From Syncephalastrum monosporum B8922 (lineage: Eukaryota > Mucoromycota > Mucoromycetes > Mucorales > Syncephalastraceae), in contig JNEN01001251.1 in the NCBI GenBank assembly GCA_000697355.1, positions 90,417 through 154,416 of the forward strand: a DNA stretch of 64,000 nucleotides, read 5' to 3'. This document shows, piece after piece, positions 1,582 through 64,000 of this stretch (within the stretch, counting starts at the first letter, position 1; every line of letters begins with the position of its first letter). Below the pieces are notes generated by a model, which had not been told where the DNA came from, searched no databases, and saw nothing but the letters and a program-made list of their open reading frames with translations. The position numbers and the translations under genes were made by a program.

Positions 1582-4500
1582 TTAGAGTTTAGCTTTTTCA
1601 GTCTTCTTCATCAGTGCTCTTTGGTTGGGTGATGGCTTGGCGTTGTCTTGCGCAATAATAGAGGCGAGTCGTAAGACACGAGAACTCACTGAATAGTCTC
1701 GTCAAATAAATGAAAGGGCAACTATACATGGTTCAAACGTACCTGCTGCATTATCACGTCTGTTCTTGCCTTCTCTGCGGAACTGGCCGATGCGATCTGC
1801 TAAATTCCACAGATGTCCTTGTGGAATTAAGATCCCGTTTGACAGCTGGGGCATGAATTCGGTACTCAAGGAAAGTTCAGACCACGACTTGGGCTGCGTA
1901 TGGTGACGCATTCGGAGGATGCCCAATTGCGCATATGACTTGAGCGCGGTTCCGAGCGACTCCTTATTCACAGCCTCTAAGTAGCTCTTCAAAGGCGAGA
2001 TGAGTTTCATCGACGGATATGTTTGATAGTGCAAGCATTACCAGGTCACCTTGATAGTAAAGCGTTTTACCCAAGGACTGCAGCCGACCGGCAAACATAG
2101 CCAAGTCTACCCAAGGCGCAGGGTCGCCTATGTTCATACTTGGGGGCACCAGGGAGAAAAGGCTGACGCATGCAAGCCAGTACGCATCCACGAACGGCCA
2201 GATGAGAAAGCACAAGAAATCTATACAGTCGTAAGAGAGGATTAGTCGTCGTACACCTAGCGTCTTGCTGAGTACTCATACCATAGTTTTCACGTCCATA
2301 ATTCCATTCCTCGTCAGATAAGCCGACCCAGCCATCCTCGCTGACGCACAAGACACGCTGATCCACCAGCCATTGTACCGTACGCCTGGTGTTACTCTCA
2401 ACACCACCCGGCGTGTAAATCATTTCCAGTTTAAGAAGGCCCGACAAGAAGCTGACTTGGTCCAGTAGTTCGGCATATTGTAGACGCTGTTTGAGTTTTC
2501 CGCCGCCTCTTTTAACCATTGTATAGAGCGCAGCGCACACAATTGCTATTATATACATGCAGATATGAGTACTCGCTTAAAGTGTTTAAATTATGTGTCA
2601 ATTACCCTCTTCCACGAAAAGATGGATCACTTGGTTTCGATAGTATGAAAGCTCAAAACGGTCAATGCCATAGTACGTTGGCTCAAGGATATCCTTTTGC
2701 TTGTGCTCGCCGATCAAGTCCTTGTGAATCGTAAGAGACCTGGTTTAATATACATACATATCAATGATATCTTCACACCCGAAATTCTGTACGACGTACC
2801 GATGAACCACCTCATCGGTGGACATGCCATGGAACTCGGCAACGCTGCCGCCTTTGACTTTGATCATACTGATCAGCCAGTTGACACGCCGCACGAGCTC
2901 GGTCTTGCCCACGCCGCGACCTCGTAAAGTCAGAATCACCGTTCCCACCAAAGCAGACGGCATGATAACTGAGGCATTATTCTATTCAATATATACAGGA
3001 ATTTGTCAGTGCTTACTTATTTCGTAGCTGAGTATCATGGTAACCATCTTACAATATCGGCGAGGGCTCTAAGTTGAGAAATTAAGTTACCAAGTATATA
3101 TCAGCAACATGGTGGTTATATTGCATCATCAAGGGAGGGGGGCTGAACTTACTTGTAGCCGAAAGACTTGATAATCACATTGCGGTCATTGCTGCTTTCA
3201 AGACGAAGAGCACTTTTCCACGAGTAATGTTATTTAGATCTAATATTCGCTGCACCGTTTTCGCAAGTTTACTTACCTTCGGTGCTCTAGTTCCTTTTGA
3301 AGCCATACGCGTAAAGAGTATGGTTTTCCAAGTCGTACTGTGTCAAAGAAGAATGATTATCACATATTGAAAGGAACGCGATTTGATGTGGATTCCTACC
3401 GTCGACTTGACCCCACTTGACTTGCAAGACATTAGCGCTCTTCAAAAGTCCCCTTCATTGGAACAATCTGCGTCAATAGACAGTAAAATGTACGACATGT
3501 AGTGCTTGGAAAATAAGCTCACCATAGACTTTCTTTTTCTTTCGGAACACCGAGCAGCTCATTTGCATAACTGAATAATCAAAATAATGTGTGTATGAGT
3601 AAGTATGGCGTTCGATTTCCTTTCTTCCCTCCCACGTGCGTTGATGTCTCGATAATCTTGTCATAGCTGGCGGATAAAGGCACAATATAGCAGTCCTGGA
3701 CGCGGTTATCCATAATAGCATTGAGGATAATCTTGATGAAGCCCAATTTCGGAGCCAAGAGCTTGCCGATACGCGATCGTGTGCCTTCAACAAAGCATTG
3801 CAAATTCACTTGCATGATTGCACAATGAGCGGAACGAAAAAATCCGATTTATGCGTTTACCCAAGCCTTGATTGATACTTACTGCCTTCTAACATGAGAG
3901 TCGTAATGTATTCCTCGAGCACAGTTTTGTATAACATGTCATCGCCCCACTGTCGGCGGATATACAGCGCACCCGATGATTTCATGATATTTCCTAGTCC
4001 CGGTAGATTCATGTTGTTTCCACCAATGACGTGAGGTAGTTGAATTCCTGTGACAAAAGATAAAAATGGTATTCAAAATGCTGTCAGCTACAATATAGCT
4101 TTTGGTAATGCAAGCATGCAACTTTGTGTTTCTGGTAGCACATACCGAGCCGAAACATAACATAATTGATCACGAGATAATCAACGTGGGACCTATGAGC
4201 TGGAAGGAATACCAAAGACTGTTTGCGAGTTTCCGCTAATCTCGCCACGCGCTTCAGCTGGATCATGTAACATAGGAAAATTTGCGAGAATGTATGTAAA
4301 TTCGGCCCATCGTATGCTCTTCTTTTGCCCAACACCGATATCCACCATGGCTTACCTCCGCCCATTCACTTTCTTTGATATAAATCCCTTGGTTGTAAAG
4401 ACGAGCCAAACCAAAGTTAACAGCGAACGCCAGCGATCTTTGCATAAGGTTGCATTTAATAAGGTTACATATGTGATACACATACACAAATAAAAGCGAA

Positions 4501-59443: not shown

Positions 59444-60707
59444 TTAGGCATGCTCCTTCTCGAATTCCGCCATATATTTGATAAGCATGTCGATATGCTC
59501 TTCAGGCATAGCGTTGTATATGGATGCTCGGATACCTCCTATATCGATGACTCAGTATATTATCATGTTAATGATTGTCAGTTCTTACCGACGGAACGGT
59601 GACCCTTGAGCTGCACCATATTTCGCTCCTCGGCACCCTTCAGGAATTGCTTCTCCTGGTCTTCAGAGGCAGCGCGGAAGACGACGTTCATCTTGCTACG
59701 GGCGTCCACGTGGACAGGGCATGTGAAGATGGCACTCTTGTCGATGGCTTCGTAAAGTTTATCTGCTTTGCGTTGGTTGACCTTTTCGATTGCAAGTAGG
59801 CCGCCTTGCTCGAGGAGCCACTCGAGAGTGAGACCGACCATGTAGATTGCAAAGGTGGGCGGGGTATTGTAAAGCGAGTCATTATCAGCCATAGTCCGGT
59901 AGTCGAGCATGAGGGGGCGGAGAGGACCAGTCTCGAGGGCATCGACGATGAGATCCTTACGAATGATGAGGATAGTCACGCCAGCAGGGCCCAAATTCTT
60001 CTGCGCGCCTCCATAAATGACGCCGAATTTGGACACGTCGATGGGTTTGCTCAAAAAGTTGCTGGACATGTCCGCGACGACTGGTACACTAGGGTCCACC
60101 GCAGGAATGTCCTTGAACTCGACGCCGTGCACGGTCTCGTTGTCGCAGTAGTAAGCATACGCGGTTTCTTCAGCAGGCGAAAGCTGCCACTCTGCAGGCG
60201 GAGGAATGCTGCCATACGCGCCCGTGCTCTTCTTGGTGTCAACAACGCGGTTCACGCGTACGTTGAAAGCATCGCCCAAACGAGCAGCTTCCTGAGCAGC
60301 CTTGCTCGACCACGATCCAGTCACAAAATAATCGACCGTCAAGGCTGCGTCTTTCTTGCCCGCCTTGGCGAGAGCGGCTTGCTTGGCCGCAACCAGATTG
60401 TAAAAGATAGCAGAGAACTGAGTGGTTGCACCGCCTTGCATAAACAGGATCTCGTAATTCTCGGGGATGTCCAGAAGTTGGCGCAGATTCGACTTGGTGC
60501 GGGCGAGGATCTCGCCAAAGGGTTTGGAGCGATGCGAGAGCTCCATGACGGACATGCCCGTGTCGCCATAGTTCATAAGCTCGGTTTGTGCTTTTCTCAA
60601 CACGCTCTCTGGACTGTGTGTTCTAGTTAGTAGTGTACACTCTGTACTCTATCTTAGTATTACATTTTGGCAGGTCCTGCACCAAAGTTATAGGTCGTCT
60701 TGCTCAT
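59444..60707 (-). CDS. SER1: Phosphoserine aminotransferase
   Basis: PLP enzyme converting 3-phosphohydroxypyruvate and glutamate to phosphoserine in serine synthesis. Exon 1 MSKTTYNFGAGPAK is joined over a 50-nt intron (60614-60663) to IPESVLRKAQTELMNYGDTG. Further signatures: SVMELSHRSKPF, LFMQGGATTQFSAI, GSWSSKAAQEA, VVADMSSNFLSKPID, and the PLP-lysine motif GVIYGGAQKNLGPAGVT. A second 50-nt intron (59539-59588) leads to GIRASIYNAMPEEHIDMLIK. It ends EFEKEHA. Full length, about 385 residues. Confidence 0.96.
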
Positions 60708-61449
60708 GGTTCTCTGTGTGCTCTTGCTGACAGCTGAATGACAAGAGCAAATCTGAAAAAGAGCCTTAAAAAAGAGCGACCGAATCACGTTACACAGACC
60801 GTCACATCAAAGTCATCATCTGTCAGAGATGCCCTATCAATCTCCTGGACACCGAGACCAGATTGACAGCCGCGTTGTGTGAATTCCTCTTGAAAAGTGC
60901 CCTATTTAAAAACGTACGTATATATAGGTGTCCTGTTTGAGCTAGTGGGTTACAGAAAGAAGGTTGCATAATTTCATCCACACTTTACATCCTAAATGCG
61001 GCAAGCGTAACCAAAAGGAGACATCTTCTTACAAACATGTTATGGGTATGTCAAAAACCATTGACCCGATGCAAGCACCAACCATCAGAATCTTAATATG
61101 GCCCCATCAAATTGGATTGCACGCGTGCAGGCAATGTCTCGTGCACGGTGACCGCAAATCATGATGCGAGAACAGAATGTGCTTGTGCTCTATTACATAC
61201 CAGTGATTTTTAGTATGTGCCAAATTGATTGGCTGTGAGAGGACGGGTGAAGTTATGCGGAAAGACGAGCCCGGTTTTGCCCTGACGTTATGAACGATAT
61301 GACTAACGCCATCCATAAGCTAAAACCGTTATCAAAGTCATTACCATACATACCGTCATTATTAGCCAGTACATCCCGTGGAAACTGTCCTGTATATATA
61401 TAGAAACTATATACGGGCATATTGCCCGAGCCGCCCTGTCTAGGGGGCC
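60708..61449. other. Intergenic region 3' of the Fanzor-like gene
   Basis: Contains the SER1 promoter side and the 3' flank of the Fanzor-like gene. No protein gene is seen. The 60 bp next to the Fanzor-like stop contain two adjacent hairpins, listed separately. In TnpB/Fanzor elements the guide (omega) RNA is encoded at and beyond the 3' end of the nuclease gene, so this is where it would lie. Confidence 0.5.
61393..61428 (-). ncRNA. Tandem hairpins directly 3' of Fanzor-like gene, candidate omega-RNA element
   Basis: On the plus strand, CGGGCA (61414-61419) pairs perfectly with TGCCCG (61423-61428) around a 3-nt loop. Immediately beside it, TATATAG and CTATATA pair around AAA (about 61396-61412). 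Both lie within 60 nt of the gene's stop codon on the downstream side. A structured RNA role is inferred from position and from what is known of TnpB/Fanzor; it could equally be a 3' UTR or terminator-like fold. Confidence 0.3.
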
Positions 61450-64000
61450 TCATACTAGTCTACTTCTTTTTAACTCCCCGTCTGCTTGTTCACTGGGTGC
61501 CTTTCTCTTCCCTTTTTTCTTCCTGCTGGAACCAGAGGTGCTTTCTTGATCCTTTCTGGACAAAGGCGGTATGAAGCACATGGGCTTCTCGCCCGCGACC
61601 AAAAGGGCTTCCATCATGAGCGCCATATTCTGCGCAGCCATGCCGTCACGATGGAAGTACTTGTGGCATACGCGACATGTTTTTACGCGAAGGACGTCGT
61701 ACGGCTCAGCTTCAGGTGATGGGTTTGAGGGCATGCGCTTCAAGTACTCGGTAAAAACCTCTTTACCCAACTGGAGGCAGTGAGGGCAGATTTGGCTTGT
61801 GCAATACTCGTTGAGGCGGACCAAAGGGAAGTCATGACTCTTTGCTTTTCGTTTGAGCGCTTCCAGAAATTTCTCATCCATAGGCGCCCTCGCTCCTTTG
61901 CGCGCCGGTCCAGCGCTCTGGCCATCCACGCCGACGCCGACCAAAACTTTCGTTTCCTCATTGTTGCTTGCCTGCTTCACCGACTCGAGCAGCAAATCGC
62001 AAATGCTGTCAAGACGTGACCGTATGGAACGCTGTATCTCCCATTTTTTCCGGAGAACAGAGGGCCTCGAGTAAAAGTTCCTCAGAATGTCTTTGTTACT
62101 GTTCGACTGGTGAGACCTCAGTTTTGCCATGTATGCATGTGGATTGCCTGCACCAGTAACCTGTCTTGATATATGGGCCTCGATGTCGTTGATTTTTTCG
62201 CGGTCTTTTTTATCTTCCAGCCACCGAGCATTTGGGTTTGTCAGGCCGTAGGCCTCCTGTCGACGCACGCAAAGCTGTAGGCCACGCCTTGGACCTCCGC
62301 TTGGTAAGATGGGCATGGCGAACGACGCCACCGGACAGACTTCACCGCAATCGAGTGCCAAGACGGCTTTCAATTCACTCTTGGTATCCTCGTTGTCTCT
62401 CAGATACTGATCAATGCTGATAGGCTGGCGTTTGATTGTGCCTCTTGCGGCAGGTTGCATCCAGTTTGTGTACCCTTGTATCACTTTGATTCCGTTCGTG
62501 CGAAAAGACGATTGCGGTGTGTATTGCGCTTCTCGAGTCCCTGGCACTACCTTCTTCAATTTATAGGCGTATGGGCGGTTCTTCAGCTTGATATCTCCTT
62601 TATGATGTACTGCTCTGACGCCAATATCTAAGATAAAACTGACAGCGCTCTGATCAAACGACAGTGTATCAATATGACGTTTCCTTTTTTTTTCTACACC
62701 TTGGAGCTTGCTTTACCTTTCCCTCTTCCCCGTCTGTAGCATTCCGATAAGCTTTGTAGTCTTCTTTAACAAGATCGATACGGTTGAGCATGGGACTCAG
62801 CTGGCTCTCGCTGAAAAGGATACACGCAGGAGAGAGGCCGGTAGCCGGTACAGGATTGATAAAATCCCTTGAAAAATCAGGCAGGATTTTCTCCATGTCC
62901 AGTGTTGCTTCCAGCAGACGATGGGCTTGTCTCGGTTTCGTTGCTTGCAGAGACTTTGGAGAATCTGATGACGGACGCTGGTAGCCCAGGCCATCGTAGA
63001 GATCAAAGCCTTCCGTTGTGACGGCCTCTTTTGGGCCGCGCGCAATGATAACTGAGCCAAAAAGACGCTCCATCCGGCCTCGGTACGCTTGTACTACTTC
63101 CTGAATTCCTTGATGCTCTTTGACGCCATCTGGTACTGTTCGTAGGGCTTCTTGATCGGGCATAATGCCGCCGTTCGCATGGAGCGGCACACGGAACACA
63201 GAAGCAAAGATGTATGCCCCAATTGAGTCGTGCTCTGGCCATCCTGCAGGTACTGTGGCCATTCTTTTCAGCTGGTTGCAAAGCTCCACGAAATCATTTG
63301 GACGATTTCGGCGTCGACGAGACCGAATAAAGCGGGAAATCGACTTTGCCGTATCGGATGGTAGATGCTTGTAGTGGGAGAGCAGAGCTTGACGCACGTC
63401 AGCGTCTGTGTTGATCATATTGAATAGCCATTGCCGGAACTGATCGTCCACAGGCCAGCCCTTTGGAACTAATGCCTGTTGCTTCAAAAGACTGTCGACC
63501 AAGGCAATAGATCTTGGGATGAAATTGTGGATGATGTTTGCCCGGAAGAGTGAATCGAGCTCTCTTGCCAGAGACTCAATCATCGGGCGTTTTCCCCCAG
63601 AACTGTTTAGCACCGGTGCTTGAGACCAGTCGCCTGCGTAACCCTGCCACCATATGTATCGTGCTTTTAATAAAACGTTACGCAGGGGCGGATTCATTGA
63701 CATCATGGCGACCAATGACTTGATGCTTTTGTCTTCCGGATACGCGATGAAGCTGTTTGGGTTGTGTATCCATCCTGCAGCGTCCAGGCGGGGAGAGACT
63801 TGCTGGTATGCCTCAGTTGCAAAGTCATTGAGGCGCTCATTGGCTGCGTTGACGTAAGCGGTGGTCATGTTTAAGATCCAGGTCCAGGTCTTTTGCGCGC
63901 ATGATTCACTGGAGTCAGAAGTCGAAGCAGCTTCATAACCTTGCCAGCGCAGGGTGGAAACAGGATCCCGTACCACACCGCCGCGAGTCGACTGAAAAAA
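61450..64000 (-). CDS. Fanzor-like (eukaryotic TnpB/IS605 OrfB relative) RNA-guided nuclease-like protein, 5' end off window
   Basis: Two overlapping-frame blocks read as one gene. The 5' block (about 63990-62669) is helical, with AYVNAANERLNDFATEAY and LRNVLLKARYIWWQGYAG; it is preceded by TTTTTTCAG at 63992-64000, so an upstream exon lies outside. The 3' block carries the nuclease core: SAVSFILDIGVRAVHH, RuvC-I VLALDCGEV (Asp at 62350-62352), RuvC-II RLNEYCTSQICPHC (Glu at 61807-61809), zinc ribbon CPHC...CRVC, and RuvC-III HKYFHRDGMAAQN (Asp at 61645-61647). The E-Y-x-TS-x2-C-x2-C and RD-x2-AA-x-N strings are TnpB/Fanzor signatures. The tail is basic (RKKKGKRKAP). All three acidic residues are present, so it may be active. 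The blocks join either through a 67-nt GT-AG intron or by a slip in a 9-A run (see findings). Fanzor1 versus Fanzor2 not decided. Confidence 0.72.

Follow-up and report, generated by a model that had tools for sequence, protein, structure and literature searches.

Fanzors are eukaryotic relatives of CRISPR Cas12. Fanzor and TnpB proteins share a sequence motif, given in the relevant passage of PMC3627910 (Bao and Jurka 2013) as D-X(125,275)-[TS]-[TS]-X-X-[C4]-X(5,50)-RD. The section of that paper devoted to MCi-2 of Mucor circinelloides describes unclassified Fanzor1 elements with near-identical 6-kb 3′ regions, differing 5′ regions and no recognizable terminal inverted repeats, and reports target duplications of 11-12 bases (ATAATTNNNN(N)). 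In its passages on the catalytic residues, PMC10711439 places an 'alternative E' of Fanzors six residues before the zinc finger and describes DPG as near exclusive in RuvC-I. A passage of PMC11071296 refers to 'Fendons' of large DNA viruses in an ambiguous phrase that cites a Fanzor paper; the term may simply be a label for Fanzor homologues.

In this work we analyze a Fanzor-like gene at the end of a 64,000-nucleotide stretch of the fungus Syncephalastrum monosporum B8922 (contig JNEN01001251.1, positions 90,417 to 154,416), hereafter the window, together with its copies in the same genome. The analysis points to a multi-exon gene of ~1,400 residues, carried by a multi-copy mobile element, whose predicted product would join a FEN1/XPG-like 5′ nuclease domain, a Thr/Ala-rich linker and a Fanzor1-type RNA-guided nuclease, and we consider this fusion the probable reading of the locus. 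Five results computed here underlie it: the Fanzor half, its intron, an element whose multiple copies share their 3′ end, a joint reading frame consistent with splicing, and the recurrence of the arrangement in divergent loci.

Results

The Fanzor half in the window

The right end of the window is the end of contig C173, and the minus strand there encodes a Fanzor-type protein in two overlapping minus-strand frames, ORF a (62669-64000, 443 aa, running off the contig end) and ORF b (61450-62712, 420 aa between stops). The gene is cut by the contig end, leaving the C-terminal part in the window copy (Table 1). ORF b matches Pfam PF07282 (Cas12f1-like_TNB) at E = 1.6e-9 (38.2 bits, cut-off 26.3) and, weakly, NCBIfam guided_TnpB (E = 3e-7, 30.1 bits, cut-off 100). 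Searched alone with phmmer it reaches PpFz1 at E = 0.56, which is not significant. A three-row family profile (A2), in which one row combines two loci, retrieves PpFz1 (E = 2.2e-5) and SpuFz1 (E = 9.4e-4) as its best solved matches, followed by spectrin at E = 0.55. Folded alone, ORF b gave a predicted structure at pLDDT 34, which was not used.

An initial annotation, made from the sequence alone, had proposed a Fanzor-like nuclease with an intact RuvC triad and had named profile searches as a check. The proposal is borne out by the PF07282 match above cut-off, by the complete triad and by the Fanzor1 profile matches. The extent given there, 61450-64000, does contain a Fanzor gene, but as two exons split by an intron, and its first three positions are the stop codon.

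The window protein contains the motif of PMC3627910, as that passage gives it, in order and spacing, in line with the earlier reading of D, E, a Cys4 ribbon and D as a TnpB-like succession. Six residues separate the glutamate from the first zinc cysteine (E-YCTSQI-C); this is the 'alternative E' signature described in PMC10711439, and the glutamate had been rightly assigned to the rearranged Fanzor position. In RuvC-I, DPG is replaced by DCG in the window, C164 and C179, by DFG in C186 and by DLG in C116. On its sequence features we nonetheless file the protein as a divergent Fanzor, because PMC10711439, in the passage concerned, words DPG as near exclusive. The part of exon 7 within the window has no significant match of its own in Pfam, NCBIfam or PDB; by analogy it would correspond to the region N-terminal to RuvC (REC/WED). 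The neighboring gene at 59578-60648 on the minus strand encodes a class-V aminotransferase (PF00266, E = 5e-40).

Table 1. Features of the Fanzor-like gene and of the adjoining element end, in window positions
Feature	Position	Strand	Remarks
Exon 7, 3′ part (contig-cut)	62717..64000	-	open frame; 98% identical to the C164 copy
Intron 7, GTAAAG...TTTGATCAG, 67 bases	62650..62716	-	GT-AG, in phase 0 at both borders; accounts for the apparent frame break
Exon 8: RuvC nuclease and zinc ribbon (TNB)	61450..62649	-	399 codons and stop; PF07282; PpFz1/SpuFz1 profile matches
RuvC-I catalytic Asp (LALDCGEV)	62350..62352	-	invariant in A2
Relocated RuvC-II catalytic Glu (NEYCTSQICPHC)	61807..61809	-	invariant in A2; 'alternative E' position as described in a passage of PMC10711439
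Zinc-ribbon cysteine pairs	starts 61788 and 61677	-
RuvC-III catalytic Asp (FHRDGM)	61645..61647	-	invariant in A2
Stop codon	61450-61452	-
Element 3′ end with predicted stem-loops, candidate guide-RNA scaffold	61399..61455	-
TA adjoining the element's right end	61397..61398	.	in 9/9 aligned copies
Flank that would supply the guide segment if TnpB/Fanzor-like	61378..61398	-	position only, by analogy

Copies in the genome

In the 27.5-Mb genome PF07282 was found at 26 places, 25 of them above cut-off. Six form one young family, made up of the window copy (C173), C179, C164, C176, C24 and C156, with pairwise identities of 98.1-99.3% (97.8% for the long C164/C179 match). These six near-identical copies answer the suggestion, made with the initial annotation, that further copies be sought. 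Each is followed at its right end by different DNA. Contig ends cut off four of the six; the other two, C164 and C179, are whole and share stretches of 7,068 and 7,417 bases. Besides these six, C17 and C147 retain both ends of the element but have internal deletions, and in C162 several changes break the frame and two aligned codons are stops. A much older copy lies at C166:70685-74920 (minus), with both halves in order and exon 7 open over 641 codons; this copy and that on C77 are known here from coordinates and identities alone. Among other Fanzor-like families of the genome (L001-L008, L025), a multi-copy one bears EYxTSQVCSRC-type motifs, and the L025 family has a classical DPG in RuvC-I. 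On C116 (L021, about 2617-3900), repetitive short-unit coding-like sequence precedes a divergent Fanzor copy.

Intron and gene model

In all four copies compared (C164, C179, C173 and C176) the junction of the two frames lies at one and the same site, and a poly-A tract of copy-dependent length falls within intron 7, where a change in homopolymer length is as expected of non-coding DNA. A frameshift or sequencing error between the two ORFs is ruled out by this common site and by the in-phase GT-AG intron, which accounts for the frame break and leaves a programmed frameshift unneeded. The exact sites of intron 7 are a best guess, because a second GT-AG choice, read by eye, also keeps the frame.

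Spliced throughout, the C164 copy comprises 8 exons separated by 7 GT-AG introns of consistent phase, and reads 1,414 codons without a stop. Of these codons 1,395 lie before the usual end; the frame reads past the element because the copy's own stop codon is changed. C179 shows the same exon layout with a one-base deletion, and hence a frameshift, in exon 7. Introns measure 46-78 bases in these two models. The gene model is drawn from sequence only, with splice sites picked by eye so as to satisfy GT-AG and keep the frame.

The N-terminal domain

Upstream of the Fanzor exons, the ORFs of C164 and C179 start with MGVKNL and contain VLDSE, READAQVVYLA, SRDGDLFAYG (TRDGD in C179) and SGNDY. The N-terminal 389 residues match Pfam XPG_I over the whole I-region at E = 0.0016, with 19.2 bits and thus below the cut-off of 24.9. 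Against a profile of four host FEN/XPG-type sequences the first 386 residues score 18.0 bits, the best of 2,000 shuffles reaching 8.8, and a profile comparison of the first 322 residues with the host conserved block returned 46% probability over 48 columns. Searches of PDB and NCBIfam gave no match for the domain. In the C164 model, residues D37, D108, E198, D200, D220, D222 and D287 occupy what we take to be the seven catalytic positions of FEN1. Six of the seven align automatically with the host FEN/XPG-type sequences; the automatic alignment did not pair D37 with the host FEN1 Asp, and its presumed equivalence comes from the motif and the FEN1 positions. Residues 1-386 resemble a divergent FEN1/XPG-like 5′ nuclease, and we treat them as a candidate of that kind.

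Recurrence of the two halves

Exon 7 has no Met before residue 136 in C164 and C179 and therefore needs upstream splicing; in the numbering of a 1,000-residue query, its early part is conserved at 76% in C77 (residues 40-110), 53% in C162 (4-91) and 46% in C166 (10-583). The exon is matched from its start (query residue 4-10) at five loci, on C164, C179, C162, C77 and C166, which amount to four lineages because C164 and C179 are near-identical. At each of the five the N-terminal half, in whole or in part, precedes exon 7 on the same strand; the C77 match to it covers only residues 319-380, beyond the catalytic motifs. The oldest locus, C166, has the same arrangement, with 46% identity in the Fanzor half and 37-57% in the N-terminal domain.

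On C16 both parts lie on one strand, exon 7 is undetected and stops are present. The N-terminal domain occurs with no Fanzor match on the same contig in C180, C79, C131, C167 and C196 (in C196 at the contig end). Conversely, other loci, C107, C116, C94, C186 and C3 among them, have Fanzor exons of this family and no domain match; they do not test the fusion, because none is matched before query residue 139. A search of the 4 kb upstream of the C116 copy gave no hit. These counts of domain and Fanzor loci, taken over the best-scoring candidates, are each at least the figure given.

Element ends and 5′ part

A 31-base pattern at the 3′ end (GGGC...GCCC, then ...GTTTCTAT, then TA) recurs at 10 genomic places with at most 3 mismatches, the reversed-pattern control giving 0. 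The dinucleotide at the right end is AA in C186 and CA in C162, both older copies. Both sides can be read in four copies (C147, C17, C164 and C179), and TA is all that is seen at their ends. Left ends differ: C147 and C17 start with TA followed by GGTGGGG, and in C164 and C179 the left part is 2.0-2.4 kb longer and, provided that the first shared TA is the target, starts with TA followed by TATTCAG. Among the 25 longest of 125 inverted-repeat pairs in the C179 element, no pair links one end to the other, and none of 15 peptides of the C164/C179 element gives a transposase or Rep/helicase match in Pfam.

Two known transposon classes were considered and set aside. Helitrons end in CTRR at the 3′ side; the 5′ ...TCAG and the 3′ hairpin of the element are reminiscent of them, but its end reads CTATA. 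Tc1/mariner elements would fit the TA flanks but not the lack of terminal inverted repeats among the inverted-repeat pairs inspected.

The 5′ part of both complete elements holds a SecY-type piece on the strand opposite to the Fanzor gene (C179:180729-180986, plus; C164:247887-248063, minus), with E = 1.5e-10 for the C179 stretch. Fuller SecY-type genes are found in C60 and C156, contigs that match the element region at 88% and 67% DNA identity. The 5′ part of C179 also bears a Rieske-type domain (C179:182279-182569; 22.6 bits, cut-off 20.3), 93% identical to C154:614893-615183, which the element has probably acquired as a fragment of another gene; about 353 bases of this 5′ part are missing from C164. 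A stretch of 89 bases in the 5′ part (L029 reverse strand 1568-1656) has at least 17 further copies at 87-91% identity; five of the 17 further copies listed have a nearby inverted partner, and the stretch is probably a small nested repeat element.

Candidate guide RNA

By analogy with TnpB and Fanzor systems, we infer that the element's 3′ end may yield a guide RNA whose guide segment derives from the flank. In single-sequence folds of five copies, the first stem is present in some version in all five, the GGGC/GCCC hairpin in three (window, C17 and C186) and a terminal hairpin in two (C184 and C186). The fold energy of the window 3′ end is unremarkable (z = -1.34, with 19 of 200 shuffles as good), and Rfam gave 0 matches within window positions 60600-64000.

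Selection and possible exchange between the halves

Between C164 and C162 the N-terminal domain shows dS 0.24 and dN 0.060 (dN/dS 0.25), and the introns differ at 64 of 373 positions. Against C164, dN/dS over all codons compared is 0.57 for C179, 0.93 for C173 and 0.55 for C176 (0.32-1.04 by part), values that are no proof of present constraint or function because the changes are too few. Counted per 100 positions, C162 and C164 are for the most part 81-96% identical as far as about element position 3,800, apart from dips to 75-77%; identity then falls to 74% and, after element position 3,935, to 55-64%. This step coincides with the linker of CAACAG repeats that joins the two halves, which suggests that the nuclease-like half has been swapped between Fanzor backbones.

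Discussion

The element might contain two neighboring genes, with the FEN1/XPG-like nuclease encoded by the first and the Fanzor by the second, instead of one gene for a single protein. Such an arrangement would sit well with Fanzor1 proteins, which a passage of PMC10711439 describes as reaching about 800 residues, and the joint frame is itself read from splice motifs and frames only. Several observations speak against it: only 86-100 bases separate the domain match from the exon 7 match in C164, C179, C162 and C77 (323 in C166, where exon 6 is undetected), the C164 model has no stop after the first domain, phase matches across intron 6 in C164, C179 and C162, and the conserved early residues of exon 7 precede its first Met. 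We regard two genes as distinctly unlikely. The domain could instead be a host exon captured by an ordinary Fanzor element and devoid of function, much as SecY-type and Rieske-type gene pieces lie in the element's 5′ part, and its similarity to host XPG proteins is indeed weak. Against this stand the low dN/dS of the domain between C164 and C162 in the face of diverged introns, the same arrangement in C166 with the domain at 37-57% identity, and the acidic residues kept in C164, which together make capture without function more improbable still.

The state of the window copy is a separate matter, since a dead remnant without activity would be compatible with a fused two-domain gene as the best explanation of the family. 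The copy is cut by the contig end and its sister copies C179 and C162 are broken; yet 823 codons compared with C164 show no stop and no frame-breaking indel, and the RuvC triad is intact. That the window copy is dead is a serious possibility, albeit one to which we give less than even weight.

Fanzors described to date are, to our knowledge, proteins with a single nuclease, and their part in moving their own elements is unclear. For the mobility of the fused two-domain gene and the function of the fusion we infer the following. The hairpin-bearing 3′ end of the element, together with the adjoining DNA, would give rise to a guide RNA that steers the RuvC domain to a matching site, as in Fanzor and TnpB. 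5′ ends or flaps at the R-loop or break would be trimmed by the flap-nuclease-like domain fused to it; alternatively, the trimming would take place during repair synthesis that copies the element. In a bolder reading the element would be self-contained, a single protein with a Fanzor cutter and a 5′ flap nuclease moving or spreading it by guided cutting and strand-displacement repair; we offer this as a tentative proposal that, for now, we hold to be unlikely. Copying from a fixed 3′ end and stopping at variable 5′ points would explain the single conserved 3′ end, the differing 5′ ends, the captured gene pieces and the lack of a recognized transposase. If the fusion of a Fanzor to a flap-type nuclease is real, eukaryotic elements combined guided cutting and end processing in one protein. 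The fusion offers a direct route to test what Fanzors do for their elements, and may be of relevance to genome editing, where end processing influences repair outcome.

The literature searched gave no clear earlier description of a Fanzor paired with a DNA-repair-type nuclease. The terms 'XPG' and 'flap' are absent from the main texts of PMC3627910, PMC10711439 and PMC10432273, and 'XPG' from PMC11423790. A search whose reach ended short of most subscription papers and of all supplements returned no literature joining Fanzor and XPG; in the passages retrieved, PMC12719977 uses Fanzor and FEN1 unrelatedly, and a match for TnpB, XPG and transposon concerns Cas12a. No relatives were found among the matches listed for protein collections, in viral contigs or in prokaryotic genomes, which is weak evidence of rarity because the collections may hold few fungal genomes.

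Compared by description, the 'Fendons' passage of PMC11071296 is silent on a FEN1/XPG domain fused to a Fanzor. The MCi-2 elements, as described in the section of PMC3627910 on them, resemble the present element in a fixed 3′ part, a variable 5′ part and the lack of terminal inverted repeats, and differ in their 11-12-base duplication ATAATTNNNN, in place of which only TA is seen here. Prokaryotic TnpB shares the RuvC domain and zinc ribbon and differs in size, in the position of the glutamate, relocated here, and in the introns of the present gene, and its NCBIfam models score far below cut-off. With the 5′ nucleases FEN1, XPG, EXO1 and GEN1 the N-terminal domain has in common, as we take them to be, the MGVKNL start, the GNDY motif and the seven acidic positions, whereas its similarity lies below the Pfam cut-off and it is, in the preferred model, fused to an RNA-guided nuclease. 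The order of D, relocated E, Cys4 and D and the carriage by a mobile element are shared with the Fanzor1 proteins SpuFz1, PpFz1 and GtFz1, from which the present protein departs in RuvC-I, with DCG (DFG in C186 and DLG in C116 at related loci) for DPG, and in its predicted length of about 1,400 residues as against about 600-800, with an extra N-terminal FEN1/XPG-like domain.
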